Below are positions 7,626 through 34,809 of a stretch of 49,907 nucleotides of DNA, one piece after another; the first letter of the stretch is position 1; every line of letters starts with the position of its first letter. Below the pieces are notes generated by a model, which had not been told where the DNA came from, did not search any database, and saw only the letters and a program-made list of their open reading frames with translations. The DNA lies in the IMG/VR virus record IMGVR_UViG_3300010397_000053, positions 1-49,907 of that record; one strand, 5' to 3'. Source of the DNA: a virus. The position numbers and the translations under genes are program-made.

Positions 7626-8113
7626 ATGTGCTTCCAACTTGCCTTTCGTCTAATAGCGTGGATGCTTACTACAGCCATTCCAAAGGCTGCGGCTATTTCA
7701 CGTGCGCTACACTCAGCAGCCCGAATCGCGCGGATATGTTCTTCTGTTAGCTTTGCACCACTAGCTCTTTCGCCTTGTTTATTAAGGCGCATCCTGCCTT
7801 TGTCGGTAGCATCAATGATATTTTCTCTATGCGTTCCTTGAAAGAGATGCATAGGGTTGCAGTATGGCGGGTTATCGCAAGTATGGAGAAGTTCCAATCC
7901 AGGGACCAGTTCCTCCACTTCTAGTTGGTACACCACGCGATGCGCCTTAACGTCCCGTCCATTCAGCCAAAACTTACCATAACCGCCCTTAACGTAACGG
8001 ACCCCACTGTACTCCCAGCATTGATTTGGTTCGCCGCGAGTCACAAATTTCCAGAATCTAGCGATGTCGCTATCGGATAAAATAATCTCTCGGTTAGGAG
8101 GTCTACTGCTCAT
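7622..8113 (-). CDS. HNH homing-type endonuclease inserted in the terminase gene
   Basis: A protein of 163 residues. The HNH_3-type core is KAHRVVYQLEVEELVPGLEL, then LHTCDNPPYCNPMHLFQGTH, which is the usual H...H-x-C-D-N-P-x-C-N-P-x-H-L arrangement. The C-terminus (GAKLTEEHIRAIRAAECSAR, then EIAAAFGMAVVSIHAIRR) is an HTH of the type found on intron- or site-specific homing enzymes. It overlaps the N-terminal terminase fragment by 11 bases and the C-terminal fragment by 4. It therefore fills the whole gap in another reading frame. It probably arose by insertion into terL. Confidence 0.88.
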   Translation of the reverse strand: MSSRPPNREIILSDSDIARFWKFVTRGEPNQCWEYSGVRYVKGGYGKFWLNGRDVKAHRVVYQLEVEELVPGLELLHTCDNPPYCNPMHLFQGTHRENIIDATDKGRMRLNKQGERASGAKLTEEHIRAIRAAECSAREIAAAFGMAVVSIHAIRRKASWKHI

Positions 8114-9353
8114 AGCCGATCACCTTTGCATTGGTCTCTATGTGGTAAGGCATCCCCAGAAGAGAAGTGGATCTAAACCACTCTATCGTCTCCAGCGGCA
8201 AAGCGGCATGAGCAGAGTGTTGAAAACTCTGTTCTGGAGTAGCCGGATAATTAGTGAGGAAAATATTGAGCGTCCCCATCTTCTGCGCCTGTTTGCGCTC
8301 CGTCTCCCACCAGTACAGTTGATTCCTACCGATGCGAACTGTCTCTCCGCCCATGAACTCAGGAGATGTTCTTTCGATGAGGTCCGCATGTTCTTTACTG
8401 GCGGCATCTGGCTCCCAACCATCGGGCGCAATCAGACGATTCTTGTTGCTGTTGCAATAATGGGGCGTAAACACGTAAACCCAGCGCTCAAAGCCTTCTT
8501 CGCGCTTGCGGATGTACTCGGTGAACTGATGCCAGAAGTTGAACTGCCCTCTGCCGTTAGCGGTGCTCTCAAACGCCACAAAACTGCTCACGGCCTTGGG
8601 AACGGCGGGTAAAAAGTCGAATTGCAAGCGCCACGGGTCAGGCCAAAGCGCAACTTCGGTCATGTGGGAGATGTCGAACTGCTGTCCGGTGCCGACTCCG
8701 GCCTCCTGGTTGGCCTGCTGGTATGTAATCGAGGATTTTAGCGCCTCAAACGTCATCCCGCCGTTTTTTACGTCGAACTGGATGGCAGGCTTCAAGAACC
8801 ACGGCAGATTATCGAGCCAGATGTGATCGCGGGTGTAAAGTTCGCCAACTTTGGTGTCATCAAGAGACGCGGCAATGGCGCGAGTGCCGCGAAAGAGCGT
8901 CATCCGGTGCCCGGTGATGAGGCGCATAGTGGCGGTAGCGAACTGCTGGCGCGTTTTATGCCACACGGCCATGATTCCGTCCGTAAACCCGTGCGATTTT
9001 AGCTCCCGGTAGGATTCTTCTTCACGTTTGGCGATGAGGGCCAGCGCCCGCTCCTGTGAAGGCCAAAATTCAGGGATAACGCCGTTCCCGGACTTGGATT
9101 GCACCGAAGTATCGAGTTGAATGAAGCCGTAGCGGAGCGCCCAGTAGCGGAAATCGAGTTTGCAAAGCCGCTGTTCATTGCGGATGAAGGCGGATTCGCG
9201 TTCGGTAAGCTGAGATTGCCCTTTGGAATCGTCAAATTTCTTCTGTAGACGTTCGGTAATCGAGCAAACTTCGTCTACGGAGCGCCGTTCGACTTCGATT
9301 CCACGCTGTTTGAGCGCGAAAATCTTCTGTTCAACAATTTCTGCTGAATACAC
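8103..9353 (-). CDS. Terminase large subunit, N-terminal ATPase fragment
   Basis: A 416-residue protein and the packaging motor half of TerL. A degenerate Walker A region is VWHKTRQQFATATM near residue 130. The Walker B-like segment is DISHMTEVALW near 230. The coupling motif FESTANGRGQFNFW follows near 270, and a YPATPEQSFQHSAH segment near 380 is typical just before the nuclease linker. The protein then stops where a full TerL would continue. It starts at GTG 9353, sharing one base with the upstream stop (TAGTG). Function presumably needs association with the separately made nuclease fragment or RNA-level joining. Confidence 0.85.
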   Translation of the reverse strand: MYSAEIVEQKIFALKQRGIEVERRSVDEVCSITERLQKKFDDSKGQSQLTERESAFIRNEQRLCKLDFRYWALRYGFIQLDTSVQSKSGNGVIPEFWPSQERALALIAKREEESYRELKSHGFTDGIMAVWHKTRQQFATATMRLITGHRMTLFRGTRAIAASLDDTKVGELYTRDHIWLDNLPWFLKPAIQFDVKNGGMTFEALKSSITYQQANQEAGVGTGQQFDISHMTEVALWPDPWRLQFDFLPAVPKAVSSFVAFESTANGRGQFNFWHQFTEYIRKREEGFERWVYVFTPHYCNSNKNRLIAPDGWEPDAASKEHADLIERTSPEFMGGETVRIGRNQLYWWETERKQAQKMGTLNIFLTNYPATPEQSFQHSAHAALPLETIEWFRSTSLLGMPYHIETNAKVIGYEQ

Positions 9354-12314: not shown

Positions 12315-12343
12315 TTGACTATGATAATCACATACCTTATGAT
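12315..12343 (+). promoter_or_regulatory. Sigma70-type promoter of the small zinc-protein operon
   Basis: TTGACT (12315-12320) and TATGAT (12338-12343) are spaced by exactly 17 bases, near consensus. The predicted start is at about 12350, where the first ATG begins, so the mRNA would be leaderless. Confidence 0.65.
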
Positions 12344-12351
12344 AATCACAT
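12321..12351 (+). repeat. Direct repeat operator ATGATAATCACAT x2
   Basis: Two perfect 13-base copies (12321-12333 and 12339-12351) lie 18 bases apart. They cover the promoter spacer and the -10/start region, with a partial third unit (GATGATAAGCACA) after them. The spacing places both on nearly one helix face, as for a repressor. Confidence 0.6.
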
Positions 12352-12757
12352 GATGATAAGCACAGCGCAGCGTTTACGGGCGATGATAGAGGCCGCTGAA
12401 GCTAAAATAATTGAGAAAGACTCGAATTATCAGACCGCAGAAGATGGTCGGTTTCAGGTTTATCTGACCCCAGTCGAGCAGCGCACCCGCTCTATGGAGC
12501 CCCACTACCGTGTTGGATATTATCTACTGGTTGATGGAAAGTGGAAGCGCACCAATAAGGCCGCGTTCGTAGCGGAAATGGAGGAGCAAGAAATACGCAA
12601 GTATGCCGATTCACAGACCACTGATGAAGGATTCCCCCTTAATCCAAGCGCTATGGTCTGCCCGCGTTGCGGGTTAATGTGCGAGATCGGGGACCATAAA
12701 CTCCCCGAGTCTTGCATACGAGCCCTCAAATCAGAGTTAATCCGCAACAACCGATAG
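12350..12757 (+). CDS. Hypothetical protein with C-terminal Cys pair
   Basis: A protein of 135 residues. The N-terminal helix (TAQRLRAMIEAAEAKIIEKD) precedes a beta-rich middle, and a C-terminal VCPRCGLMCEIGDHKLPESC could bind zinc. ATG 12350 lies at the predicted transcription start with no Shine-Dalgarno. ATG 12383 is an alternative. It heads an operon of about 15 small genes. No family is recognised. Confidence 0.65.
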   Translation: MMISTAQRLRAMIEAAEAKIIEKDSNYQTAEDGRFQVYLTPVEQRTRSMEPHYRVGYYLLVDGKWKRTNKAAFVAEMEEQEIRKYADSQTTDEGFPLNPSAMVCPRCGLMCEIGDHKLPESCIRALKSELIRNNR

Positions 12758-12779
12758 CTAGCAGCCTAAGGAGCACCAC

Positions 12780-12956
12780 ATGGAAAGCACAAAGCAAACC
12801 GAAATCGAAATCGAGATAGAAGAAGATGAGATTGACGAAAGCAATCCGCATGGAGCGCGTTGCGCCGCTTGTGGTGAGTTGCTATTCGATGATGAGTGCC
12901 TAGACTGCGACGATGACAAGAACTTCGGTGAAGCGTGCAGGCGCTTCTACGCCTAG
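12780..12956 (+). CDS. Small acidic zinc-ribbon protein
   Basis: A protein of 58 residues. It has an acidic start of alternating Glu and Ile (TEIEIEIEEDEIDE) and then RCAACG...ECLDCDDD, two CxxC pairs forming a short zinc ribbon. AAGGAG lies eight bases before ATG 12780. It is probably a protein-interaction or nucleic-acid-mimic peptide, but the function is unknown. Confidence 0.65.
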   Translation: MESTKQTEIEIEIEEDEIDESNPHGARCAACGELLFDDECLDCDDDKNFGEACRRFYA

Positions 12957-12976
12957 CCAAACCTCAGGAGGAAGCA

Positions 12977-13252
12977 ATGACAACGAATGAGCGTGAAGCG
13001 TTGACGCCTGAAATGACCGCGATTGTGGCCGCTTATGGGTTGCGGCTGGACAAGATCACAGATAACTATGCGTTTTACTCGCTTGGTGATGCTGAAATCT
13101 CAATCTATCGGCACCAGGATAACTGGTCTTCGATGCGTCCAAATGCAGACGGCACACATCGCGTAAATCTTGGGCGCACTGCCGAATCATTGGAGCGGTT
13201 CATCCATCGCGCAGACCTAATGCGCGTAGCAGCCCAGGAGGTTCACCCGTGA
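12977..13252 (+). CDS. Hypothetical protein, early operon
   Basis: A protein of 91 residues starting MTTNEREALTPEMTAIVAAY. AGGAGG four bases before the ATG makes this start clear over the longer frame. The fold looks alpha/beta and it has no cysteines. Its end overlaps the next gene by four bases. No family is recognised. Confidence 0.65.
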   Translation: MTTNEREALTPEMTAIVAAYGLRLDKITDNYAFYSLGDAEISIYRHQDNWSSMRPNADGTHRVNLGRTAESLERFIHRADLMRVAAQEVHP

Positions 13253-13431
13253 AGTGTCCTGAGTGCGGAGGGGATTGCATCATCGGCGATTGCGGAATAC
13301 ATCCAGAGGGATGCCTATATGGTGGATTTTCCTGCGGATTCTGGGTGGTTGTCGAAGGTTGTCAGCTTGAGCATCCCGTATACCACCAACATGCAGAAAA
13401 TGAGCCATGTCCCTTGGAGGCCATGAAATGA
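13249..13431 (+). CDS. Cys-rich small protein with zinc ribbon
   Basis: A protein of 60 residues beginning MKCPECGGDCIIGDCGIHPE, with seven Cys and several His, consistent with one or two zinc sites. GTG 13249 is preceded by AGGAGG. The stop overlaps the next ATG (ATGA). The function is unknown. Confidence 0.6.
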   Translation: MKCPECGGDCIIGDCGIHPEGCLYGGFSCGFWVVVEGCQLEHPVYHQHAENEPCPLEAMK

Positions 13432-13724
13432 CTAGCGCCGAATCCCTGCGCCTCCGCTGCTTGCGCTGCAATCACTCTTGGCTGCGCCGCACAGACGATG
13501 CGCCCAAGTGCTGCCCTGCGTGTAAGAGCCGCCGATGGTATGAAGTTACGAGAAAAGAAAGAGGAAAGAAAATGAAACCGCCAGTGTGGTCCAAGATGAG
13601 TGAGCGCCCCAGGACGATGACGGCAGAGATTTGGGCCATTCACTTCGAGGATGCCGACTGTGAAGCAGAAGTGTTTAAAGGAGAAGGCGCGGAGGAAGCG
13701 GCCCGGTTGGATCAAAGTATCTGA
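13428..13724 (+). CDS. Zinc-ribbon protein with a second C-terminal module
   Basis: A protein of 98 residues. The N-terminal ribbon is LRCLRCNHSW...KCCPACKSRRW, the form seen in many phage zinc-ribbon proteins. The C-terminal half (MSERPRTMTAEIWAIHFEDA) is separate and looks like an appended module. ATG 13428 overlaps the previous stop, with TGGAGG upstream. Confidence 0.6.
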   Translation: MTSAESLRLRCLRCNHSWLRRTDDAPKCCPACKSRRWYEVTRKERGKKMKPPVWSKMSERPRTMTAEIWAIHFEDADCEAEVFKGEGAEEAARLDQSI

Positions 13725-13757
13725 CGCTGAGGCCGACAGACTCCGAAGGGAGAAGCG

Positions 13758-13856
13758 ATGAAAACTCCCGCCGAGTTAGACCGCATCGTCGATGTGGTCC
13801 TGAATCACAAAGTTCCCGCTCGACCAAAACGGAAGCGGAAAAAGAAGGGGAAATAA
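13758..13856 (+). CDS. Tiny basic protein, paralogue of the one at 15654
   Basis: A protein of 32 residues. The N-terminal helix MKTPAELDRIVDVVLNHK is followed by a Lys/Arg tail (RPKRKRKKKGK). The pattern MKxPxxLDxIxDVxLxxK plus basic tail is repeated in the gene at 15654-15779. Nucleic-acid binding through the tail is inferred. AAGGGAG precedes the ATG. Confidence 0.55.
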   Translation: MKTPAELDRIVDVVLNHKVPARPKRKRKKKGK

Positions 13857-13860
13857 GAAA

Positions 13861-14307
13861 ATGAGCCGATCTGGATACAGCGACGATTTGGATGACAACT
13901 GGCAACTTATAAAATGGCGCGGAATGGTGGCGAGTGCCACGCGCGGGAGGCGTGGGCAGAAGTGTTTGATTGATCTTCTCGCGGCGCTCGATGCGATGCC
14001 AGAGAAGGCGCTCATCGCGCACGAACTCGAAACCAAAGACGGCGAGGTGTGCGCTCTCGGCGCTCTCGGTAAAGCGCGCGGAATCGATATGCAGAAGCTC
14101 GACCCGGAAGAACCGGAGTCTGTCGCTGCCGTATTTGACATTGCAACGCCGCTTGCGCAGGAAATTGTCTACATGAACGATGAGCATCTGGATTCCGTCT
14201 GGAATGAAGCCACGAAACGGTACGACGACATCACCCCGGAAGTGAGATGGGCGCGTATGCGGGCTTGGGTCGCATCGCAGATCAGGCCAGCGGTCGTAAA
14301 CACTTAA
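13861..14307 (+). CDS. Conserved phage protein of unknown function (MSRSGYSDD type)
   Basis: A protein of 148 residues beginning MSRSGYSDDLDDNWQLIKWR, with GRRGQKCLIDLLAALDAMPE and EVCALGALGKARGID in the middle. It ends with RMRAWVASQI. I recognise this as a common protein of early or accessory regions of phages and prophages, without an assigned activity. It is mostly helical. It starts four bases after the tiny basic gene, with AAGGGGA upstream. Confidence 0.75.
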   Translation: MSRSGYSDDLDDNWQLIKWRGMVASATRGRRGQKCLIDLLAALDAMPEKALIAHELETKDGEVCALGALGKARGIDMQKLDPEEPESVAAVFDIATPLAQEIVYMNDEHLDSVWNEATKRYDDITPEVRWARMRAWVASQIRPAVVNT

Positions 14308-14322
14308 GTTATGGAGCGGGGC

Positions 14323-14341
14323 ACTCATGTATATAATTCCC
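14323..14341 (+). repeat. 19-base direct repeat, copy 1
   Basis: ACTCATGTATATAATTCCC is identical to 15784-15802, and the similarity continues as AAAAAT versus TAAAAT. It spans the start of the MYIIPKN gene, so the two copies look like a gene-start duplication. Confidence 0.7.
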
Positions 14342-14437
14342 AAAAATCTCAAGGACAACTGGGACTGCTATTTACTGGCAAACGCCGAGCGGGACTCCAG
14401 CGGAGGAAAGAAAGATGAAAACAAGACAAGTAGTTAG
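14327..14437 (+). CDS. Tiny hypothetical protein MYIIPKN
   Basis: A protein of 36 residues starting MYIIPKNLKDNWDCYLLANA. Its first 19 bases (ACTCATGTATATAATTCCC) recur exactly at 15784-15802, where the copy stops after five codons. GGAG lies 11 bases upstream. It overlaps the next gene by 23 bases. Confidence 0.45.
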   Translation: MYIIPKNLKDNWDCYLLANAERDSSGGKKDENKTSS

Positions 14438-14573
14438 ACGCGAACTAGTCAGCGCGAGGCTTGAGCGCTTCGAGGGTCATGCGGTACCGAAAGACCTGCT
14501 ACCACGCAAAGAACGCCGTAAGCTCGCAAGAGCGCTGGCGGCTGGCGACTGGAAGAAAAGGCCATCCGCATGA
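14415..14573 (+). CDS. Small Arg/Lys-rich hypothetical protein
   Basis: A protein of 52 residues, strongly basic (RKERRKLARALAAGDWKKRP at the end). GGAGG about ten bases before ATG 14415 supports the start. The stop overlaps the next gene (ATGA). It may bind nucleic acid, but this is inference from charge. Confidence 0.6.
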   Translation: MKTRQVVRRELVSARLERFEGHAVPKDLLPRKERRKLARALAAGDWKKRPSA

Positions 14574-14740
14574 AATACCTTAAAGCGTGGGTATGTGCTG
14601 CGTGCGGTTGCATCCAGCCTGAACTGGAAACACACGAATGTCCTACATGGGACTGTCGGTGCGGGGCCAGTGAGTTTATACGCGATGAAATCACTATCCC
14701 CGATACAGCGCAGGTGGGGACCAAGGAGAGCGAGCTATGA
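14570..14740 (+). CDS. Small zinc-ribbon protein
   Basis: A protein of 56 residues with CAACGC...CPTWDCRCG, a four- or five-Cys ribbon, and an acidic tail. The ATG overlaps the previous stop and its stop overlaps the following ATG, both by four bases. Confidence 0.6.
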   Translation: MKYLKAWVCAACGCIQPELETHECPTWDCRCGASEFIRDEITIPDTAQVGTKESEL

Positions 14741-14913
14741 AAGGCCTATACCACGCCCAGCGCGGTCACGATGAGATTTTGCGTCCGCACCTCGTCTACC
14801 AGCGCAAGCAAGTCAATGACGGCGTATGGAGGCCGATAGTAGCCTTCCTGATCTGCATGGCCTTTGGCGCGATGCTGCTATCGAGCGTTTGTGATTACTT
14901 CGGGGTGAAGTGA
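14737..14913 (+). CDS. Small membrane protein
   Basis: A protein of 58 residues. A basic cytoplasmic-type N-terminus is followed by the span IVAFLICMAFGAMLLSSV near residues 34-51, so it is probably anchored in the inner membrane. AAGGAG lies ten bases upstream. It is coupled to both neighbours. The function is unknown. Confidence 0.6.
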   Translation: MKGLYHAQRGHDEILRPHLVYQRKQVNDGVWRPIVAFLICMAFGAMLLSSVCDYFGVK

Positions 14914-15155
14914 TGAAAGCCATAATTGATGGATTTGAGATCGTGAAACGCCAGTCTGAAGCATGGGCTGTGTACGACGCAACCGTGACGCCATTTTGTT
15001 TCGAGGAAGACGGAACTCCGTTGAATCGCTGTAATGACTGTGGCGTTCTAGTAATTCAGGGCGACGAACTGTGCGGACACTGCTATGAAGAGCAGCGCCG
15101 CGCGGAAGAATGGGATGCGATGCACCCAGAGCTACGATGTCCACCAAGGGAGTAA
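14913..15155 (+). CDS. Zinc-ribbon protein
   Basis: A protein of 80 residues. The N-terminal half is alpha/beta. The ribbon CNDCGVLVIQGDELCGHC with a following Glu/Arg helix is a complete CxxC-x10-CxxC site. The start is ATG 14913 (TGATG overlap) rather than the adjacent GTG. The function is unknown. Confidence 0.6.
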   Translation: MKAIIDGFEIVKRQSEAWAVYDATVTPFCFEEDGTPLNRCNDCGVLVIQGDELCGHCYEEQRRAEEWDAMHPELRCPPRE

Positions 15156-15158
15156 CTA

Positions 15159-15473
15159 ATGAGCAAGATCGTGACGACAGAGTTAGGGCGTTTCCGTTCG
15201 GTCCAGGATTTGGGCGGTAGAAAATCGTTCCTGTTTGAGTGCCCAGAGTGCAAGGAATGGCTTCCGCTGTCAGAACAGCATCTATCAGGCGAACTAGCGC
15301 CGGTCCACTTTGCTCGTACAGACGACATGGTGACGATGACCCATCAGCGGGTATGCTCATTCGCAAAGAAGGACAATTACGGAGCGGCTCTAATAGCGAC
15401 ACTACAGGCCAGAATCCTGATGGGCGAAGCGCCTCACGATACGGATCACGCCAGCCTGAATCTTGGAGAGTGA
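15159..15473 (+). CDS. Hypothetical protein with FECPEC motif
   Basis: A protein of 104 residues. SFLFECPECKEWLPLSEQHL holds one CxxC. A later VCSF and several His residues could complete a metal site. GGGAG lies upstream of ATG 15159. No family is recognised. Confidence 0.6.
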   Translation: MSKIVTTELGRFRSVQDLGGRKSFLFECPECKEWLPLSEQHLSGELAPVHFARTDDMVTMTHQRVCSFAKKDNYGAALIATLQARILMGEAPHDTDHASLNLGE

Positions 15474-15653
15474 ATGATGCTAACCGGCTGGCGCTACTGG
15501 TGGAACCGCTACCTCGGCTGGATTCCGTTTCAACCATGCCGGATCTGCTGGCGCTGGTATTGGGGCGGCTTGCCGATGGAAGGCTGGCAGGCGTCCTACC
15601 GGGAATATTGCTCGAAACGCTGCTATGACGATGCAGGCGGAGGATTGTACTAA
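15474..15653 (+). CDS. Tryptophan-rich small Cys protein
   Basis: A protein of 59 residues with eight Trp and seven Tyr, and CRIC plus CSKRC as a likely zinc site. It begins at ATG 15474 or 15477, one base overlap or adjacency with the previous stop. It ends directly before the next ATG. The composition is very unusual for a soluble protein. The function is unknown. Confidence 0.55.
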   Translation: MMLTGWRYWWNRYLGWIPFQPCRICWRWYWGGLPMEGWQASYREYCSKRCYDDAGGGLY

Positions 15654-15779
15654 ATGAAAGTGCCCAAAGACTTAGACACGATAACTGACGTGATCCTTGC
15701 CTACAAACCGCCCGAAAAGGCAAAAGCCACGAAACGGCGAGAAAAACGGAGAGCCAAACGTGCTCAAAAGAAACGGTAA
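15654..15779 (+). CDS. Tiny basic protein, paralogue of the one at 13758
   Basis: A protein of 41 residues. MKVPKDLDTITDVILAYK is followed by a long Lys/Arg tail. It aligns along its length with the 32-residue gene at 13758-13856. Its end overlaps the end of a minus-strand gene. Confidence 0.5.
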   Translation: MKVPKDLDTITDVILAYKPPEKAKATKRREKRRAKRAQKKR

Positions 15780-15931
15780 CTATACTCATGTATATAATTC
15801 CCTAAAATAGCGGCATCCAGTTTTTTTACGGTTTCTTTGGAGCTTTGACTTTGGTGAACATAAAGCCGGTCTCTGGCTATCATGCAAGCCTCATACAGAG
15901 CCATGAAAGATTCCCAATTATCGTCCTGCAT
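15764..15931 (-). CDS. Small helical hypothetical protein, convergent to the early operon
   Basis: A protein of 55 residues beginning MQDDNWESFMALYEACMIAR, with KETVKKLDAAI. GGAGAGGA five bases before ATG 15931 makes the start convincing. Its last codons run over the truncated repeat and the 3' end of the opposing gene, so its C-terminus may have been altered by that duplication. The function is unknown. Confidence 0.6.
   Translation of the reverse strand: MQDDNWESFMALYEACMIARDRLYVHQSQSSKETVKKLDAAILGNYIHEYSYRFF
15784..15802 (+). pseudogene. Truncated copy of the MYIIPKN gene start
   Basis: The 19-base repeat is followed by TAAAAT, so the copy encodes only MYIIP before a stop. It follows a paralogue of the tiny basic gene, just as the intact copy follows that family two genes earlier. 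This supports a small segment duplication. Confidence 0.5.
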
Positions 15932-16403: not shown

Positions 16404-17087
16404 TTACTCTAACACAAGTTGCTCAGGCGCTTCAATAGCTGGCGCATTGAAAGGGAGAACTTCTTGGCTCAGGCGCTTGGCCGCGGTCTCGCAATAGCGC
16501 TCCTCGATCTCGATGCCTATTGCTGCGATTCCTGCGGCCTTAGCAGCGATTAGCGTGCTTCCGCTACCTGCGTAAGGGTCCAGGACCGAACAGGCCACCG
16601 TAGCGCGAATAAGGCGCTTTAGGATGCTGGTCGGTTTTTGGGTTGGATGTAACTCATTTCCAGTGCGGTCGCCATAAAGCACATCGGGAATACGCTCCCT
16701 GAAGGCGTGCATGGGTCCGGGATAGAAGCATATGGCCTCCCACTGGCGTCCATGTTCGTGCTGCAGGTCGCCCATTGACCAGTTATTCTTCACCCAAACC
16801 AGTACCGATTTAGGGGGTGGCATATCCCGTAAATTGTCCCATCTACAGAACACGTAAGCCGCTACAGAAGCATGACTTATTACTCTGTGAACCATACCAA
16901 CATCGAGAGCGCCGTCGCCAACTATAGGGTCGTGCTTTTCGGCCCTATGGTTGGATTGGAAGGACATCCCATAGGGCGGATCGGTGATAACCAAGTCAGG
17001 CTGCTGATCTTCACGGAGTGTCGGCATAATCTCCCGGCAGTCACCGTGGTAAATCGTGATTCCCGCGTGCTGGTAGTATGGCTTCAC
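16404..17087 (-). CDS. DNA methyltransferase (DPPY type, solitary)
   Basis: A 227-residue amino-methyltransferase that would methylate adenine N6 or cytosine N4 in DNA. Motif IV is TDPPYGM near residue 35, LHPTQKP near 148, and SAM motif I is DPYAGSGST near 172. This DPPY-first order is the beta-type arrangement. The middle is short, so target recognition is compact. The start is GTG 17087 (MKPYYQHAGITIYHGD), a start typical of this phage family. No restriction enzyme is nearby, so it is probably an orphan used for protection from host restriction or for regulation. Confidence 0.9.
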   Translation of the reverse strand: MKPYYQHAGITIYHGDCREIMPTLREDQQPDLVITDPPYGMSFQSNHRAEKHDPIVGDGALDVGMVHRVISHASVAAYVFCRWDNLRDMPPPKSVLVWVKNNWSMGDLQHEHGRQWEAICFYPGPMHAFRERIPDVLYGDRTGNELHPTQKPTSILKRLIRATVACSVLDPYAGSGSTLIAAKAAGIAAIGIEIEERYCETAAKRLSQEVLPFNAPAIEAPEQLVLE

Positions 17088-17235
17088 TCACCCTCCGTGT
17101 CTCCACATAGCTGCAATTCTGGCAGCACCGCGCCGTCTCAGCGCCTTCCTTCGACCACAACGGCATCTGCGCTTCACCGCACTTGCAACAGTTGTCGCCC
17201 TTCGCTATTCCCGGTTGTTGTTGTTCTAGTACCAT
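17041..17235 (-). CDS. Small zinc-ribbon protein overlapping the methyltransferase start
   Basis: A protein of 64 residues with CCKCG...RCCQNC, a compact zinc ribbon. Its last 16 codons overlap the methyltransferase gene in another frame. No Shine-Dalgarno is seen, but it fills the only gap in a continuous operon. Confidence 0.5.
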   Translation of the reverse strand: MVLEQQQPGIAKGDNCCKCGEAQMPLWSKEGAETARCCQNCSYVETRRVSEAILPARGNHDLPR

Positions 17236-17241
17236 GAACTA

Positions 17242-17565
17242 TTAGAGTAGCTTATTTGTGTTACGTTTCAACTCATCCTCGAACACTGCAAGCAAGTATG
17301 CCTCACGGTTCAATATCCCCTCACGCCGCTGCTTGTCCCGGAAGTCAGGGCGCGTTAGCAGATTGTAGTAGCAATCAGCAAATAGCCGCCCAGCGCGTTG
17401 AGATGTTGCCTGTGCCGCTATCGCCCTGTCGATGGCCCATGACAGTACATGCGGCGGGATCGCTGTTAGATCACGCTCTAGCGCCCCCTGAACGAAACCA
17501 TCACGGTAAGAGAGAGCGCCGGGGGTAGGATAATCCGGTTCAAATGCTGGTTGCGGCGCGGTCAT
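17242..17565 (-). CDS. Hypothetical protein, methyltransferase operon
   Basis: A protein of 107 residues, mostly helical (SYRDGFVQGALERDLTAIPP, then RAGRLFADCYYNLL). The ATG at 17565 overlaps the DUF1064 stop by four bases. No family is recognised. Confidence 0.6.
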   Translation of the reverse strand: MTAPQPAFEPDYPTPGALSYRDGFVQGALERDLTAIPPHVLSWAIDRAIAAQATSQRAGRLFADCYYNLLTRPDFRDKQRREGILNREAYLLAVFEDELKRNTNKLL

Positions 17566-17948
17566 ACCTTCACCACCCTGTAATCAGCATTCGGATACAG
17601 CGCCTTGAACAGCTTTAACTTTATCTTGTACTCCGGTGTTTCCCAACCCTTTACCTCGTGGTATTGGAGATCACCATCAAGCAGGCTAACCTCGAAATCC
17701 ACCACCATCACGCACACCCTTACGCCCTGAACCCACAATGGAATCTTAACCTGCCGATTCCATCCTAAAATCTCGCCAGCGGCCTTCAGCCCATCCAGCC
17801 TAAAAGCGTATAGAGCCTCCGCCTTGCTATCGTAAACGACGCCATTGTACGTGCGATCCGAACGCGGCGCTACGTTCCGCACCCTGCCCTTGGGACGCGC
17901 CAGCAGCGCCTTAACCTCAGCGGCGGTATAGCGGCCAGCATTAGGCAT
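17562..17948 (-). CDS. DUF1064 PD-(D/E)XK nuclease-like protein
   Basis: A 128-residue protein matching DUF1064: YNGVVYDSKAEALYAFRL near residue 35, VMVVDFEVSLLDG near 82 and YHEVKGWETPEYKIKLKLF near 95. Glu in SKAEA, Asp in VVDF and the E-x-K in HEVKG are the residues of a PD-(D/E)XK nuclease core. The family is found in phage replication or recombination regions. A role as DNA nuclease or junction resolvase is inferred, and the biochemical activity of this family is not established to my knowledge. It overlaps the upstream gene by eight bases. Confidence 0.8.
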   Translation of the reverse strand: MPNAGRYTAAEVKALLARPKGRVRNVAPRSDRTYNGVVYDSKAEALYAFRLDGLKAAGEILGWNRQVKIPLWVQGVRVCVMVVDFEVSLLDGDLQYHEVKGWETPEYKIKLKLFKALYPNADYRVVKV

Positions 17949-18204
17949 CGTCGCTCGATTCCATTGGATGCGTTGGGTTGATCTTTAGTAGCTTGCCGAT
18001 GTGCTTATAGAAACATTGTTCCCCGCATAAGTCCAGCACCCGATAGGCCTCTGTATATTCCTTGAGAGAATGCGGCCCCGCTAAAGATCCTAATTCAATC
18101 CACGGTCCCCCCACTGTAGATGGGATTACGCCAATCTGGTGCCAGTGGTTGCTTTCGCCCTTAATCCTGCCGCATTCGTCGCACTTGGTTCCAGAGAAGT
18201 TCAT
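17941..18204 (-). CDS. Zinc-binding hypothetical protein
   Basis: A protein of 87 residues. KCDECGRIKGESNHWHQIG and LDLCGEQCFYKHIGKLL form the CxxC...CxxxC pairs of a common small phage zinc protein. The ATG at 18204 overlaps the upstream stop (ATGA). The function is unknown. Confidence 0.65.
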   Translation of the reverse strand: MNFSGTKCDECGRIKGESNHWHQIGVIPSTVGGPWIELGSLAGPHSLKEYTEAYRVLDLCGEQCFYKHIGKLLKINPTHPMESSDDA

Positions 18205-18470: not shown

Positions 18471-18722
18471 ATGCTCAACATAGAACGAAAAGCCGCTCTC
18501 GAAGCTAAAGAGTTCTGCCGCGATTGCCACAAGTTCTGCACTTGGGATGAGTGCGAGAACTGCTACAATCCTCTGTGCGAGGATTGCCAACTACTGTACG
18601 AAGGCAAAACTCGCTGCCATAAGTGCCATACGGCGGTGATAGCTGATGATGGGCACATCGATGACTGCCCCGCATGGGCCGGAGAGCCTTGTAAGTGCTG
18701 GGTTTATGCGGAGGAATTATGA
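18471..18722 (+). CDS. Cys-rich zinc protein heading an operon
   Basis: An 83-residue protein with 11 Cys, among them CRDCHKFC, CENC, CEDC, CHKC and CKC. These suggest two zinc sites in a RING-like or treble-clef form. ATG 18471 is chosen because the promoter places transcription start there. A longer frame would begin inside the promoter. Its end overlaps the next gene by four bases. The function is unknown. Confidence 0.6.
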   Translation: MLNIERKAALEAKEFCRDCHKFCTWDECENCYNPLCEDCQLLYEGKTRCHKCHTAVIADDGHIDDCPAWAGEPCKCWVYAEEL

Positions 18723-20023
18723 CGGAGGAGTTGACCATCATACCATCCGCCACGCTCATGCCTGTTATGAGCATCCAGCAGGCGGCGGAACGCCATAACA
18801 TGCTGGTAGAGTACACCAAGTCTGTGATGGTGAAAGATCAGGACTTTGGCGTAATCCCTGGCGTAGCTAAGCCATGCCTCTATAAGGCTGGCGCAGAGAA
18901 GTTGCTTTCATTATTCGGATTCAGCCCTTCATTTTCTCTAATCCAGCGCACCGAAGATTGGATTGGCGTGGATCACGGCGGCGAACCGTTCTTCTACTAT
19001 TTCTACAAGTGTCAACTGCTGCGCGGTGGAGGGATTCTAGGAGAAGGCGATGGCTCTTGTAATTCATGGGAAAAGAAGTACCGCTATCGTAATGGGGATC
19101 GCAAGTGCCCTCAGTGTGGCAAGCCCACCATCATCGTCGGCAAGCAGGAATATGGTGGCGGGTTCATCTGCTTTTCCAAGAAAGGAGGTTGCGGGGCTAA
19201 GTTTGGATCGAAAGATCCGTTAATCACCGGACAGGATACCGGGCAAGTCCCAAACCCAGATATAGCAGAGCAAGTTAATACGCTTCAGAAGATGGCTCAG
19301 AAGCGTGCTCTAGTGGCTGCTGTTTTGATAGCCTGCAATGCTTCCGCGTTCTATACGCAAGACGTTGAGGATATGCAGACCATCGAAGTGACGCCCACGG
19401 AAACGCGGGATGAGGTCGTGGAACGCCGCATAGTAGAAGAAAAGGCCAAGGCGTCAACCGTTTCCAAAGCTACCATTGTGGAGTTAGCAGACTTCCTGGA
19501 TACGCCGCCCGATATGCCAGAGCCGCCGCTAATGGCTCCTGCTGTCAAGAAGTCGCCTAAGTCATCGGCTTATGAAATGCGCGAAGCGGCCAAGCAGCAA
19601 GAGGCAGCCGAAGCACTAAAGGGCGATGGTGCGCCCAAGGAAACGCGCAAGCGGGGCGCTATCAGCTTCGCGGCACTCAAATGGTGGGGCGCTATGAAGT
19701 CTGAAATCAAAGACCTAACCGGGACAACGGAACTATACTACAAGCGCCTTGATGAATACGGGTTTAAGCACGCCGATGAGATTGCTACAAAAGAACAGGC
19801 CTTGGCTATCGGCAACAACCTGAAGGCCGATGTTGCAGAACTGAAGCGGTCCAAAGATGACAAGGCTTTGCTACTCGAAGCGCAGACGCATGCGCTCCGC
19901 ATCGGCCCTTACGCAACGCAAGCCGTTCTCAAGCGCAAAGGCTTGGAAACTGTTGAGGAAATCCTAAACCTTGGCGGCGACGATCTTACGGACTTGCTAA
20001 AGGAGTTGAAATCCACAGCATGA
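18719..20023 (+). CDS. Large conserved phage protein (MTEELTIIPSAxLMPVM type), zinc-ribbon insert
   Basis: A protein of 434 residues. The N-terminal region has HNMLVEYTKSVMVKDQDFGV, then LYKAGAEKLLSLFGF and GEPFFYYFYKCQL. Next come a zinc ribbon CPQCGKPTI...GGCGAKF near residues 130-162 and a conserved VNTLQKMAQKRALVAAVL helix near 195. A charged C-terminal linker ends with a helical ALRIGPYATQAVLKRKGL module. I recognise the N-terminal part from many phage early regions, with no firm function. A role in recombination or DNA annealing is conceivable but not shown. GGAGG lies six bases before ATG 18719. Confidence 0.7.
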   Translation: MTEELTIIPSATLMPVMSIQQAAERHNMLVEYTKSVMVKDQDFGVIPGVAKPCLYKAGAEKLLSLFGFSPSFSLIQRTEDWIGVDHGGEPFFYYFYKCQLLRGGGILGEGDGSCNSWEKKYRYRNGDRKCPQCGKPTIIVGKQEYGGGFICFSKKGGCGAKFGSKDPLITGQDTGQVPNPDIAEQVNTLQKMAQKRALVAAVLIACNASAFYTQDVEDMQTIEVTPTETRDEVVERRIVEEKAKASTVSKATIVELADFLDTPPDMPEPPLMAPAVKKSPKSSAYEMREAAKQQEAAEALKGDGAPKETRKRGAISFAALKWWGAMKSEIKDLTGTTELYYKRLDEYGFKHADEIATKEQALAIGNNLKADVAELKRSKDDKALLLEAQTHALRIGPYATQAVLKRKGLETVEEILNLGGDDLTDLLKELKSTA

Positions 20024-30096: not shown

Positions 30097-30132
30097 AGTA
30101 GCTCCATGTTAGCCTTTTGGGGCGGAGGTGGA

Positions 30133-30321
30133 ATGTCCACAAAAACGAAGGAATCAATGATTATCTGGCTGGCGAACAATCGCGGCGTCCTAAGCAAGAT
30201 CGCGGAGGAGATGCGGCCCAAGGTAACGCCGCAGTTCGTGGGGCAGGTTTGCAGGGGAACGCGAAAAAGCAAGGACGGAAAAATCGAGCGGATTCTACGT
30301 GCTGCTGGAGCGCCACTTTGA
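30133..30321 (+). CDS. Small HTH-like DNA-binding protein
   Basis: A protein of 62 residues. ANNRGVLSKIAEEMRPKVTP QFVGQVCRG forms an HTH-like pair of helices, ending in a basic RKSKDGKIERIL. GGAGG six bases before ATG 30133 decides the start. It heads the glycan operon and faces the motif-rich divergent region, so a regulator of either side is likely. The family resembles the phage Cro-like proteins that recognise operator repeats. Confidence 0.6.
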   Translation: MSTKTKESMIIWLANNRGVLSKIAEEMRPKVTPQFVGQVCRGTRKSKDGKIERILRAAGAPL

Positions 30322-31520
30322 GCCGTTTCGATGTAACTAAACCCGTACCAATTTTGATTTTGGGCGACAGCCCGGATGGGGTAACTGGCCTTTCTCGCAT
30401 CTGCCATGACGTTGCTTGGATCATATCCACCATGCCAGAGTTCAGGCTAGGCGTATTAGGACGCCAAGGGCTTGGCCGATCCTACTTCCCGTGGACTTCC
30501 TACCAGTTCAGCGCCCATCAGCAATGGGGAGAGGGACAGATCAAGGAAGCATGGGATGACCTGTCGCAAGGGCAGAGCGGCATCATATTCACCATCTGGG
30601 ACGCCACTAGATTGCTCTGGTTCGCAGATCCGATGGGGATGCCGGAGAACATTCAGCAATGGCTGGCAACAGGGGCAGTCGACCGCTGGGGATTGTTCAT
30701 GCAGGACTCTGAAGGCGTTCAGCGCGGCAAATTGCCGCTAACAGCAGCCCATGTGATGTCCAAGTTCGACCGCGTAATGCTGGCTTCTAAGTGGGCTTAT
30801 GGCATCACCAAGGCAACGCTAGAAGGCCATCCAGAGGTTGACTGGCTACCACATCCTCTGAATACTGACCGCTTTTTGCCGCAGGACCGCATGGCTTCGC
30901 GTTCGCACTGGGGCGTAGGAGAAAAGGAAATCCTGATAGGCTGCGCTATGGCGAATCAGGCGCGGAAGTATTGGCCTGTGGTGTTTGAGTCGCTATCTCT
31001 CATGCGGCCTACCACTGCGGGACTCCCTAAACTGTGGTGCAAGGTCGATAAGATCAGCCCAGAACCAGGATGGGGTTACTGGAATCTCGAAGCGCTAGCC
31101 TATGAGTACGGCCTTGGCAATCGCGTAATCCTTGACGTTAACAAACTCAGTGACCGCGATATGGCGCTGCGTTATTCGGCCTGTGATGCAACGGTGCTTA
31201 TATCAGGGGCGGAAGGGTTCGGCTACCCGATAGTAGAATCGCTTGGCTGTGGTGTGCCTTGCGTCACTGGGCAGTATGGTGCTGGCGGAGAGTTAGCAAG
31301 CCACGCTGTTGTGCCAACGGGATTCCGTATAGAGACGCAGCACAATGCGCGTTGGGCTACATATGAAGCGGAGCATGTAGCTAGGGCGCTGGAGACGGCT
31401 ACAGATCAAGTGCGAAGCGGGGACTGGGAACGTGAGTGGGGACAGGAACAGGTGGCTCATTTGAATGGGGCTAAGATTGGCAAGCTATACCAGCGATGGC
31501 TTAGGAAGGGGCTGCAATGA
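30318..31520 (+). CDS. GT-B glycosyltransferase (GT4-like)
   Basis: A protein of 400 residues. The start ILILGDSPDGVTGLSRI and the C-terminal GAEGFGYPIVESLGCGVPCV form the donor-binding E-x7-E pattern of GT4-like retaining enzymes. HPLNTDRF near residue 190 is also typical. It would transfer a sugar from a nucleotide donor. TTG 30318 is chosen because it overlaps the previous stop (TTGA). GGAG lies upstream. It is the first of five glycosyltransferases in the operon. Confidence 0.85.
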   Translation: MSRFDVTKPVPILILGDSPDGVTGLSRICHDVAWIISTMPEFRLGVLGRQGLGRSYFPWTSYQFSAHQQWGEGQIKEAWDDLSQGQSGIIFTIWDATRLLWFADPMGMPENIQQWLATGAVDRWGLFMQDSEGVQRGKLPLTAAHVMSKFDRVMLASKWAYGITKATLEGHPEVDWLPHPLNTDRFLPQDRMASRSHWGVGEKEILIGCAMANQARKYWPVVFESLSLMRPTTAGLPKLWCKVDKISPEPGWGYWNLEALAYEYGLGNRVILDVNKLSDRDMALRYSACDATVLISGAEGFGYPIVESLGCGVPCVTGQYGAGGELASHAVVPTGFRIETQHNARWATYEAEHVARALETATDQVRSGDWEREWGQEQVAHLNGAKIGKLYQRWLRKGLQ

Positions 31521-32224
31521 TCGTCTGCACCATCACCACCGATGCCAATAAGAACACGGAGCGTTTCAGGAGTTTCTTTGCAGACAACCCACTAGCCTCC
31601 GAAGTATGGAAAAACGATCCCAACATAGGCGTGGTCCCAGCGATGCAAAAGCTATACGAAAACAATGCCGATGAGGATTATATCTGTCTGGTACACGACG
31701 ATGTTACGGTCTACGATACCAACTGGGCAGAGCGTGTCCGCGCCGAGTTCGATGATCCAAAGGTTGCCATCGTTGGCTTCGGGGGTGCCACTGGCATTGG
31801 TGTGGATGACATCTACAAGACGCGCTACCAGATAGAGCAGCTTCAGAGGATCAACTACGCGAGCAACCAACGCGATTGGGAGACGCATGGATCGTATGAG
31901 GCTGGCAGCAAGGATGTGGCGGTAGTGGACGGCTTCTTCATGGCTGTGCGTACCTCATTCCTGCGGGAGATTGGCGGGTTTAAGTGGTTTCCGCATCGCT
32001 TCCACTGCTATGACACTGCGCTATGTGTAATGGCGCACCGCAAGGGCTATCGTGTTCGCATGGTGGGCGTCGAGTGCCAGCATCACGGCGGCGGCACTTC
32101 TACCACTTCGGAGTACAAGAAGTGGTGCCTTGAGAACGGCACTACGATGGAGCGCGAGCACGAAGAACCGCATCGTTGGATGTACGAGTTTTTCCGCGAT
32201 GAATTGCCCCTGAGGATCAAATGA
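31517..32224 (+). CDS. GT2-like glycosyltransferase
   Basis: A protein of 235 residues. CLVHDDVTVYDTNW holds the acidic metal-binding motif near residue 57. VVDGFFMAVRTSFLREIGGF and a later Asp/His pair are typical of GT2-fold enzymes that act on glycans. The N-terminal MIVCTITTDANKNTERFRSF is nucleotide-binding. ATGA overlaps join it to the genes on both sides. Confidence 0.8.
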   Translation: MIVCTITTDANKNTERFRSFFADNPLASEVWKNDPNIGVVPAMQKLYENNADEDYICLVHDDVTVYDTNWAERVRAEFDDPKVAIVGFGGATGIGVDDIYKTRYQIEQLQRINYASNQRDWETHGSYEAGSKDVAVVDGFFMAVRTSFLREIGGFKWFPHRFHCYDTALCVMAHRKGYRVRMVGVECQHHGGGTSTTSEYKKWCLENGTTMEREHEEPHRWMYEFFRDELPLRIK

Positions 32225-32394
32225 CAGACAAGGATCTAGAAAAACTAGCAGACGCAAGCCTTAAGGCAAGCATTGAGTATTACGATCAAGATAAACTTAG
32301 GTCCTCTTTCGAGAAGCAGGCGCTAGTGGCGCTTTGGACCGCTAACGCATTGCTTGCCGACATTGCCTTATCCCTCCGATACTCTCATGACTAA
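32221..32394 (+). CDS. Tiny helical protein inside the glycan operon
   Basis: A protein of 57 residues, all helical by eye (LEKLADASLKASIEYYDQDK, ALVALWTANALLADIAL). The ATG overlaps the previous stop by four bases, and its end overlaps the next start by eight. The function is unknown. Confidence 0.6.
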   Translation: MTDKDLEKLADASLKASIEYYDQDKLRSSFEKQALVALWTANALLADIALSLRYSHD

Positions 32395-33109
32395 CATTTG
32401 TCTCATAACTAACGGTTCCCGGCCCCGACTGCTGGAGCAAACGCTGCGGACGCTGTACGAGAACACGCCAGCGGATCAGTTCAACCTTACGATGGCGTGT
32501 GATGGTATCGCCATAGATATGATTGCTGCGATGCGACAGTATATAGACGACAACTTAAGCGTGATAGCCTCTATCCCCGGACCACACATTATCGGACGCC
32601 TCAAGAACCTAGGTGCCTACTGGTCAGAGAAGCAGTTCAGGCGCGGCGAGTGGCTGTGCTTCATCGATGATGATGTGGCGTTCATGTCGGGATGGTTGAA
32701 GCGAATGCAGCAGGCGTTTGCGGAGCGCAACCAACTGCGATTACTTGGTGGAGTTAGGCATCCCTACCATCAAGTGAATGAAGAATGGGCTGCTGTTGTA
32801 TCTCATGGAGGCATGAACTCTTGGCCTTCTGATGACGCGCAGGAAGTTGAGATAACCGACGCTGTGGCAGGCTACTGTCACTTCATGCGCTGGTCAACGT
32901 GGGCTCGTTTCGGCCCGTATGACGCCACAGCCAAGGGCACGGGGCAATCGGAGGACTACGCTATCTGCCGCAAGATCGTGGACGCTGGCGGTAAGGTTGG
33001 CTATATCTACCCACCTGTGATGGCCCACTGTGGTCTGACTGATAGCAGCGGCAAGCCGATACTGGGCGCGGAACTGATCGAGAAGCAGGAAGGCATCCTA
33101 TACCTATGA
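32387..33109 (+). CDS. GT2 family glycosyltransferase
   Basis: A protein of 240 residues. NICLITNGSRPRLLEQTLRT at the start and WLCFIDDDVAFMSGWLKRMQ with the DDD metal motif near residue 90 define a GT-A inverting enzyme. GQSEDYAICRKI near 195 is the catalytic-base region. The start is ATG 32387, inside the end of the preceding tiny gene. Substrate unknown. Confidence 0.88.
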   Translation: MTNICLITNGSRPRLLEQTLRTLYENTPADQFNLTMACDGIAIDMIAAMRQYIDDNLSVIASIPGPHIIGRLKNLGAYWSEKQFRRGEWLCFIDDDVAFMSGWLKRMQQAFAERNQLRLLGGVRHPYHQVNEEWAAVVSHGGMNSWPSDDAQEVEITDAVAGYCHFMRWSTWARFGPYDATAKGTGQSEDYAICRKIVDAGGKVGYIYPPVMAHCGLTDSSGKPILGAELIEKQEGILYL

Positions 33110-33660
33110 GGCTCTACAAAGAAGCGATGGAGATGACTAGCAAGATTTCGGTTGACCTGATCCTAAGCGAAGAAGAATGTTCCGGCTTCTGGGATCTCAT
33201 GGCGCAGATACCTCCAGGCGGAACGGCTGTAGAGATCGGTTGCTATCGCGGACGCAGTTCATCGCTGATGCTTCAGGCAGCGCAAGACAACCACTTCCTG
33301 TCTATCCACATTGATCCTTGGACTACAGGCGAGGCGCATGAATGGATGGGTATGGCGCAGAAGATTTCAGTTCCGTTTGTGGTGCTTAAGATGACCAGCG
33401 AACAAGCTCTGGCGCTGCCTTGGCTTGCCAATGTCCCACTGGATCTGGTTTACATCGACGGCGACCATGAAACGCCTGCCGTTGAGATTGACGTGAAGTG
33501 GGGAGAACGAATCAAGCCGGGAGGCATCCTTTGCGCCCATGACTATGGCCGCGACTTCCTGTCAGGCGTGGAGATTACGCTAAAGAACTACGTCAGAGAT
33601 CCCAAGTGGCAGATGCTTGGCGTGTGGGGAACGTTAGCGGCATGGAGGAAGGTGCTGTGA
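33106..33660 (+). CDS. Class I SAM-dependent methyltransferase
   Basis: A 184-residue protein. AVEIGCYRGRSSSLML is the SAM-binding glycine motif, LDLVYIDGDHETPAV is the acidic post-IV motif and GGILCAHDYG follows. This is the Methyltransf_24 pattern, found in sugar- or O-methylating enzymes of polysaccharide clusters. It overlaps both neighbours by four bases. The sugar or protein acceptor is not evident. Confidence 0.85.
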   Translation: MRLYKEAMEMTSKISVDLILSEEECSGFWDLMAQIPPGGTAVEIGCYRGRSSSLMLQAAQDNHFLSIHIDPWTTGEAHEWMGMAQKISVPFVVLKMTSEQALALPWLANVPLDLVYIDGDHETPAVEIDVKWGERIKPGGILCAHDYGRDFLSGVEITLKNYVRDPKWQMLGVWGTLAAWRKVL

Positions 33661-34313
33661 AACTGGCCTACCTAGCCACCTGTTTCTTCGGATCGACCGA
33701 TGACATTTGGATGCTACGGGACTCTGCCATAAAGTTTGGCGTTGACCTGAAACTGTACGGCCTAGGGAAAGCGTTCCTGCCAGGGTTCATCGACATCAAA
33801 GTTACGGCCATGCTGCCAGAGCTAGAGGCACTTTTAGCGCAGGGCTACAGTCATGTTCTCTACACTGATGGCCCTGATACATTCTTCGTCAAGGGACCGC
33901 GAGAGATAGAGGCGGCATACGCGGCGTTAGGGCATCCAGCATGGCTCATCAGCGCTGAGACAAGCTGCTATCCGCACACTGCCCTTGGTCCCGTTCTCCC
34001 GATGGACAAGCGCTGCCCTAATACGGGGCAGTACATGGGCGAGATTGGCGTAATCCTGGAAGGCTGGAAGAAACTTAAGTCTCTCTACGATGATGGCACT
34101 GACAACGAGCAAGGCTGGGTGATTCGCGGCATCGTGGATGGCATGCTGCCAGAAGTCACGATAGACATGGGCAGGTACATCTTTCGCAGCGAAGCCGACA
34201 ACTACTTTCCCGGCATGAGCGGCTGTGTGCTGCACTTCAACGGCGGCTATTGGAATCCAAGCGAAGGCAAGCGGGACAGGATGCTGCCAGTTTGGGAGCG
34301 CGTCAATGGTTAG
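33657..34313 (+). CDS. PLOD-like glycosyltransferase
   Basis: A protein of 218 residues. SHVLYTDGPDTFFVKGP carries the acidic D-x-x-D region, and AWLISAETSCYPH matches the FSAE-x-x-CWP feature of the PLOD/procollagen glycosyltransferase GT domain. A late VLHFNGGYW resembles its closing motif. GTG 33657 overlaps the previous stop and has GGAGGAAG upstream. Acceptor unknown. Confidence 0.7.
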   Translation: MKLAYLATCFFGSTDDIWMLRDSAIKFGVDLKLYGLGKAFLPGFIDIKVTAMLPELEALLAQGYSHVLYTDGPDTFFVKGPREIEAAYAALGHPAWLISAETSCYPHTALGPVLPMDKRCPNTGQYMGEIGVILEGWKKLKSLYDDGTDNEQGWVIRGIVDGMLPEVTIDMGRYIFRSEADNYFPGMSGCVLHFNGGYWNPSEGKRDRMLPVWERVNG

Positions 34314-34809
34314 ACTTTGCGTTGGCAGCGGGCAACGTCCATTCGCCAAGCCATTTATCAATGTCGATTTGAACCCTCGATGGAAACCAGATGTGGTAGC
34401 CGATGGTGCCTCCATGCCGATGTTCAAGGATGATAGCGCGGATATAATAGTGCTCCACCACGTAGCCGAACATGCAGGGTGTGGCGAATCCCATCCAATG
34501 CTGGTTGAATGCCGCCGAATCCTCTGCAAGAAAGGTTCCCTATTAGTATTCGTTCCTGATATGAAGGCATTGGCAAAGTGCTGGCTGAAAGGGAATATCA
34601 GTACTCAGATTTATCTGACTAATGTATACGGGGCCTATATGAATGACGAAGCCGACAGGCATCGTTGGGGGTTCACGAAAGAGACACTAACTGACACACT
34701 GCTATGCGCTGGGTACACCGATGTCAAGCCTTTCGATTGGCGCAAGATTCCAGGCGCAGACATAGCTGGACCTGACTTTTGGATTCTTGCGATGGAAGGT
34801 ATCAAGTGA
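34306..34809 (+). CDS. SAM-dependent methyltransferase (Methyltransf_11-like)
   Basis: A 167-residue protein. LCVGSGQRPFAKPFINVDLN is motif I, DVVADGASMPMFKDDSADII is the acidic loop, and VLHHVAEH is the motif IV-like segment. It resembles small methyltransferases of glycan clusters. ATG 34306 overlaps the preceding stop by eight bases. Confidence 0.8.
   Translation: MVRLCVGSGQRPFAKPFINVDLNPRWKPDVVADGASMPMFKDDSADIIVLHHVAEHAGCGESHPMLVECRRILCKKGSLLVFVPDMKALAKCWLKGNISTQIYLTNVYGAYMNDEADRHRWGFTKETLTDTLLCAGYTDVKPFDWRKIPGADIAGPDFWILAMEGIK

Follow-up and report, generated by a model that had tools for sequence, protein, structure and literature searches.

Introduction

Conserved sequences at gene boundaries and clusters of small genes have both been described in phages. 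As described in PMC4503421, T4 PeSL cassettes carry an early-type promoter and a stem-loop at gene boundaries, which mediate gene shuffling. In the account of cluster K mycobacteriophages given in PMC3203893, the start-associated sequences (SAS) and extended SAS (ESAS) are short conserved sequences located just upstream of varied non-structural gene starts, half of them with inverted repeats. The lambda protein Orf73, according to PMC9239242, is encoded in a cluster of small open reading frames (ORFs), targets RNA polymerase and increases the yield of phage. Here, we describe an operon of 15 short genes at positions 12350-15779 of the IMG/VR virus record IMGVR_UViG_3300010397_000053, a stretch of 49,907 bases (hereafter, the window) that includes a portal gene (phrog_156) and a terminase-like gene (8103-9353). 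Judged from its sequence and those of its relatives, this locus is, on balance, probably a hypervariable operon of exchangeable gene cassettes, about half of which encode Cys-rich proteins.

The locus shares with the T4 PeSL system, as published, a conserved gene-boundary sequence combined with exchanged gene bodies. However, many promoter and stem-loop copies are reported there, whereas here each genome has one promoter, the window has no copy of the hairpin linker found in its relatives (linker II, see below), the joints are start/Shine-Dalgarno (SD) junctions, gene-end linkers and zinc-knuckle codons, and no T4-type gene was seen. As in the published cluster K SAS, conserved start-adjacent sequences precede different genes, although the window gave 0 matches to the 13-bp GGGATAGGAGCCC when up to 2 mismatches were allowed, and several linker types occur here, some within coding ends. 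TraR and lambda Orf73, the latter as described, likewise represent small Cys4 proteins in small phage ORF clusters; they are a precedent and not homologs; their family profile was unmatched, and the Cys spacings differ here. The logic of the operon resembles that of PeSL and SAS, but it belongs to neither system, as their defining sequences or copy numbers were not found.

Results

Unrelated genes between shared patches in close relatives

Relatives were collected using three queries: the terminase yielded one close relative, L003/L053 (protein 98% identical; contig 3300024251_000007), the annealing-type protein yielded L045 (66%), and the ribbon gene yielded L141, L142 and L144. Despite the 98% identity of the terminases, the window and L053 have only patches in common across 12350-15779, namely the promoter as far as the ATG, 40 bp at the gene 2 start, 38 bp at the gene 2 stop and gene 3 start, the ribbon gene head, 40 bp at the ribbon tail, short SD matches and the start of the 14737 gene. 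The gaps between these patches are filled by different genes, many of which are Cys-rich. The main feature of the locus, cassettes exchangeable between conserved junctions, is visible only through the relatives and not from the window alone. The 15 short genes lie on the + strand, with SD sequences before most of them and ATGA overlaps at several, and the operon is arranged as follows.

12315-12352 (+): promoter-start slot; -35 TTGACT, 17 nucleotides, -10 TATGAT, ending at the ATG
12350-12757 (+): gene 1, 135 amino acids (aa), C-terminal CPRCGLMCEIGDHKLPESC module, apparently leaderless
12760-12799 (+): junction block, SD and start of gene 2; 40/40 identical to L053
12780-12956 (+): gene 2, 58 aa, CxxC-x8-CxxC, net charge -14
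12951-12988 (+): junction block, gene 2 stop, SD and gene 3 start; 97% identity to L053, with unrelated bodies
12977-13252 (+): gene 3, 91 aa, no Cys
13249-13431 (+): gene 4, 60 aa, 8 Cys, GTG start
13428-13724 (+): gene 5, ribbon A head (C11, C14, C29, C32) and ribbon B tail, frameshifted
13758-13856 (+): Lys/Arg-rich gene, 32 aa, by eye resembling 15654-15779
13861-14307 (+): 148 aa, phrog_25637 (unknown function), E 2.4e-48; 41 viral loci
14327-14437 (+): small ORF, 36 aa, start within a 25-bp repeat
14415-14573 (+): basic protein, 52 aa; junction GGAGGAAAGAAAGATGA common to L053 and L141
14570-14740 (+): zinc-ribbon-like protein, 56 aa, 6 Cys
14737-14913 (+): anchor gene, 58 aa, probable membrane segment (by eye); conserved in L053, L141, L142 and L144
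14913-15155 (+): 80 aa, CxxC-x10-CxxC, net charge -9
15159-15473 (+): 104 aa, CPEC plus H/C, 3 Cys
15474-15653 (+): Trp-rich protein, 59 aa, CRIC...CSKRC
15654-15779 (+): Lys/Arg-rich protein, 41 aa, closing the operon

The 38-bp block TTGACTATGATAATCACATACCTTATGATAATCACATG (12315-12352), a sigma70-type match, was identical in five phages. The window holds a single copy of this block, and one match was found per relative stretch. When IMG/VR was searched with the promoter pattern, exactly four contigs matched (those of L141, L142 and L003, plus that of L162), and none of the bacterial or archaeal genome contigs in the collection searched contained the block. The five frames following the ATG were open for 135, 71, 76, 54 and 41 codons, and the encoded proteins were mutually unrelated. 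Because the probability that five random frames would stay open this long (377 codons) is about 1e-8 to 8e-8, we consider the ATG of the slot to be a genuine start. The TATGAT hexamer begins 12 bp upstream of the ATG, which is the position given for predicted leaderless bacterial genes in a survey that, as published, predicts such genes in 3/3 Acidobacteria genomes (mean 13.3% of genes; PMC3160421). TATGATAATCACAT occurs twice within the block, as direct repeats spaced by 18 bp, which are perhaps an operator.

Exchange was also apparent within genes. The C-terminal 31 aa of the gene 1 product showed 74% identity to a separate small L045 protein with a different N-terminus, and the gene 2 protein diverged from its L053 counterpart beyond MESTKQT.

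We sorted exact shared blocks of at least 16 bp across six operons by location. In this test, which should be read as indicative, 27 blocks lay outside orthologous genes, and 21 of them touched a gene start, compared with 20% expected (0/100,000 simulations equalled this value). Of the remaining six, five were copies of linker I or II placed either at the end of a gene or in an intergenic position, and the sixth was a repeat remnant at 15784. Sequence common to the phages within the operon was confined almost wholly to gene junctions or two anchor genes. Linker I (CAGCCACGCGAG, mostly followed by GAGGGGAAAGCGAAAT) and linker II (ACCACAACCGGGCGCAA) each occurred in 5 copies in 4 phages, with two copies in L053, and both sit between unrelated genes. 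The full GGGC-GCAA-GCCC hairpin was present in 3/5 linker II copies. The junction blocks of the window are of other types; a search of the window for linker II gave six matches with 2 mismatches, compared with 7.4 expected by chance.

A near-identical 25-bp repeat (ACTCATGTATATAATTCCC...) was also observed, which opens the 36-aa ORF at 14323-14347 and is present at the operon end, at 15784-15808, as a five-codon remnant. The Lys/Arg-rich genes 13758 and 15654 appear to be paired in the same way. Both pairs likely reflect past duplication.

A chimeric ribbon gene

L053 carries two ribbon genes approximately 0.5 kb apart, A (LLCLRCNHSW...CCPACKSRLW) and B (...DCPYCKSRYWNELREKKEESK). In gene 5 of the window (13428-13724), an A head, identical over the 54 bp that end at 13532, continues into a B tail from 13536 on, so that the joint at 13532-13536 falls within the codons of the second knuckle, inside the coding sequence. 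One extra base at the joint shifts the frame, and translation reads on into a further start, ATG 13572, which is a probable separate gene start. A sequencing error could account for the extra base, but not for the A/B joint itself. The tails attached to ribbon A also vary among the relatives, being of the B type in L141 and L144 and linker I in L142.

Ribbon A is conserved, with nonsynonymous (dN) and synonymous (dS) divergences of 0.07 and 0.46, respectively; it is basic, and in most viral relatives it forms a protein by itself. As judged by eye, members of the ribbon family are fused to other domains in two cases, ribbon-helix-helix (RHH)-like in L157 and HNH-like in L152. These fusions suggest nucleic-acid contact, and for this conserved basic ribbon, nucleic-acid binding is the more likely role. 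In L144 (3133-3632), a ribbon A leftover is attached to a gene that by eye is GIY-YIG-like and has a zinc ribbon of its own at its end, as if that gene had invaded the ribbon gene; a Pfam search did not confirm the GIY-YIG nuclease reading.

Density of Cys-rich genes

The original prediction, made from the window alone, held that the operon is unusually dense in genes for small zinc-ribbon proteins. The eight Cys genes that it named in the operon are present, all with a CxxC and a further Cys/His pair. Some details differ: the gene at 13249 starts with GTG, that at 15159 is a weak case with 3 Cys, and 13428-13724 is the chimera described above. Under a loose criterion (one CxxC and another Cys/His pair), 8 of the 15 operon genes qualified, and under a strict one (two full CxxC knuckles), 3/15 did. 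When residues were shuffled within each protein, the loose count averaged 1.73 and reached 8 in 0/5000 trials, and the strict count averaged 0.23 and reached 3 in 6/5000. Cys constituted 4.2% of residues in the operon, compared with 1.38% in the other window genes and 1.38% in a background of 80 viral loci (735 kb; 80 of 86 stretches found, drawn by random 14-mer and not annotated phages). Among the small ORFs of these loci, 94/832 satisfied the loose criterion, with a maximum of 4 such genes in any 3.43-kb stretch, compared with 8 in the operon, a comparison in which the stretch was picked after being seen and the simple gene caller lets in spurious ORFs. In a literature search on zinc proteins in phage early regions, limited to open-access papers and thus not proof of novelty, no direct precedent for such a density was found.

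The loose criterion was also satisfied by genes of the relatives, in L053 (6/12), L142 (6/11) and L045 (4/10), as judged from simple gene models.

Families, conservation and charge of the Cys-rich proteins

Family searches gave little. No Cys-rich protein scored above the curated cut-off in Pfam/NCBIfam (best E 0.0085, below the cut-off), matches in PHROGs were only weak (best 0.021), and PADLOC gave 0 matches for 10/11 Cys-rich proteins (17041-17235 left out). Searches of phage records by tblastn, made for five of the 11 Cys-rich proteins, returned nothing, megablast of the 10-20 kb region of the window gave no assignment, and profile searches of solved structures reached best E values of 0.12 for ribbon A and 0.81 for a 12-Cys protein encoded downstream (18471-18722). 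Zinc binding by these putative zinc knuckles is predicted from the arrangement of their Cys residues.

In six pairwise comparisons covering four Cys-rich families with homologs (most other Cys-rich genes of the operon are homolog-less), C or H was kept in 33/36 Cys columns, and the Cys-rich proteins with homologs were under purifying selection. The anchor gene (14737-14913), compared with L141, gave dN 0.07 and dS 0.70. Net charge was negative in 5/8 operon Cys proteins, and this acidity fits protein targets better.

Neighbouring units and a putative annealing protein

Three further Cys-rich genes, at 17041, 17941 and 18471, had been listed with those of the operon in the original prediction; these genes are real but are part of other units, which include the following features.

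17041-17235 (-): 64 aa, CxxC-x18-CxxC, separate unit; partial 90% match in L053, disrupted there
17941-18204 (-): 87 aa, CDECG...NHWH...CGEQC, separate unit; L045 and L141 homologs, 54-57% identity
18471-18722 (+): 83 aa, 12 Cys, CxxC-x8-CxxC-x4-CxxC-x9-CxxC, third unit; ATGA overlap with the next gene
18719-20023 (+): phrog_10048 protein (unknown function), proposed here as a RAD52/ERF-like single-stranded DNA-annealing protein

The homologs of 17941-18204 kept 4/5 and 4/4 Cys columns. The 12-Cys protein showed 65% identity to its L053 counterpart (dN 0.23, dS 2.44), with C or H in 11/13 Cys columns. From its cross-brace-like spacing, compared with known motifs, this protein may be RING/FYVE-like.

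The gene at 18719-20023 occupies the place where L053 (6198-7319, -) and L142 (9919-11145) have RecT genes (Pfam PF03837, E 7e-23 and 7e-21). In Foldseek searches with a poor model (predicted local distance difference test, pLDDT, 56), the top 15 PDB rows were all RAD52 (best E 1.4e-3), and the matches to viral structures (BFVD) included ERF and Rad52. However, no sequence match was above the cut-off: Pfam gave no match to RecT/RAD52, and phrog_2760 (RecT-like) was reached at E 0.0025 only. On the basis of the shared position and the weak structure-based matches, we propose phrog_10048 as a putative, unrecognised RAD52/ERF-like annealing protein family; a protein of this type could promote recombination between such short joints.

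A DNA methyltransferase gene (PF01555; 16404-17087, -) and a DUF1064 gene (17562-17948, -) adjoin the operon, and the methyltransferase may guard against restriction. Farther along, in a gene run at 30117-36415, the gene at 30117-31520 matched a glycosyltransferase family, and its neighbours are glycosyltransferase- or methyltransferase-like by eye. Terminase relatives in phage records came from two Acidobacteriota (Tunturiibacter) phages (25%) and two marine phages (28%), and phrog_10048 relatives were found in five loci of metagenome-assembled genomes, of which three were Acidobacteriota (two Bryobacterales), one Verrucomicrobia and one Chitinophagales.

Discussion

The explanation that we favour, with moderate confidence, is that the window derives from a tailed phage and that the locus is its hypervariable accessory operon, in which a single sigma70-like, apparently leaderless promoter would drive approximately 15 small, tightly coupled genes. 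Related phages would swap gene bodies through recombination at conserved, short joints, comprising the promoter-ATG slot, SD/start junctions, gene-end linkers and zinc-knuckle codons. About half of the cargo would be zinc-knuckle proteins, and these would most likely be small structured adaptors, made early and binding host or defence proteins. Both the early timing and recombination as the cause of the swaps are presumed, the latter possibly effected by the nearby RecT/RAD52-like annealing protein. A further proposal, which we put forward only tentatively and consider rather unlikely as a whole, is that the annealing protein of the phage (RecT or RAD52-like phrog_10048) swaps genes at the slot and linkers and also recombines ribbon genes within knuckle codons, so that the zinc knuckles would serve as both fold and recombination seed and yield chimeric host-binding proteins.

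Several observations weigh against this explanation. L045 lacks any copy of the promoter repeat, and the fragment L144 also lacks the block. Neither linker I nor the hairpin linker II occurs in the window, whose own junction support amounts to a handful of blocks; furthermore, the 27 blocks were counted in every genome of occurrence and are not independent, and the gene starts and orthologous stretches were chosen by hand. Cys-rich genes are fewer in L141 (2/8, in a set that lacks its first gene), and there are none in L144 (0/6). Structure modelling of the 12-Cys protein was unsuccessful (pLDDT 45), the model of the annealing protein is poor, and the family searches identified no target for any Cys-rich protein. 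The host assignment, derived from the terminase and phrog_10048 relatives, is weak.

The original prediction further proposed that the peptides redirect host polymerase, nucleases or ribosomes, or act as anti-defence factors. This proposal is supported in part. The density is unusual and recurs with different genes in relatives, and the host-type promoter, the short genes, the fast swapping and the lack of any known family are typical of genes for host takeover or anti-defence, which seems the likeliest purpose of the operon; however, nothing points to polymerase, nuclease, ribosome or a defence system as the target. A more specific possibility, which we regard as doubtful, is an anti-defence island in which one host defence system is inhibited per cassette and swapping follows the defence content of local hosts. 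The rapid cassette turnover between close relatives and the methyltransferase gene next to the operon are consistent with such an island, whereas no inhibitor family was recognised and PADLOC, which mainly covers defence proteins and is thus a weak test, gave no match.

Somewhat less probable is a role for the zinc-knuckle proteins in transcription, as factors binding the host RNA polymerase in the manner of the C4 zinc-finger protein TraR. Lambda Orf73 provides a precedent, as it is described as a small C4 zinc-finger phage protein that binds RNA polymerase and reprograms host transcription (PMC9239242), and the operon does encode small acidic proteins. However, searches of Pfam, NCBIfam and PHROGs gave no DksA/TraR match, the CxxC-x17-CxxC spacing occurs in only 1/11 Cys proteins (18471-18722, inside a run of four CxxC), and the varied Cys spacings favour several targets.

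An alternative to recombination at the joints, to which we likewise give little credence, is that the junctions are kept only by selection on translation signals and shared ancestry, with the bodies replaced by illegitimate recombination in which the joints play no part. Several of the shorter shared blocks are indeed SD-like (GGAGGAAAGAAAGATGA), and most mosaic joints of phage genomes are described as lacking detectable boundary sequences (PMC3029335). On the other hand, blocks of 27-48 bp exceed any SD and include coding ends that give the same residues (QPREEGKAK) in unrelated genes, one genome has two copies of the same linker, and the joint of the ribbon chimera lies inside a coding sequence. 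That the cluster is a chance sample of short orphan phage genes, without any shared meaning in their Cys content, is improbable and already disfavoured. Viral DNA does have many small genes with Cys pairs (94/832 small ORFs), but 8/15 here exceeds the at most 4 per equal stretch in 80 random loci, different Cys genes recur in relatives (6/12, 6/11 and 4/10, but 2/8 and 0/6), and those with homologs are under purifying selection.

If the locus is a hypervariable operon of exchangeable cassettes, a list of orphan Cys-rich genes becomes a testable system, with one plug-in slot, a known promoter and start codon, and a different gene in each phage. Sequencing of more relatives would then allow small host-interaction proteins to be catalogued, many of which would be Cys-rich and belong to no known family. 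The findings would also tie gene shuffling in these phages to short, defined joints, including the codons of a protein fold, and they propose a function for phrog_10048.

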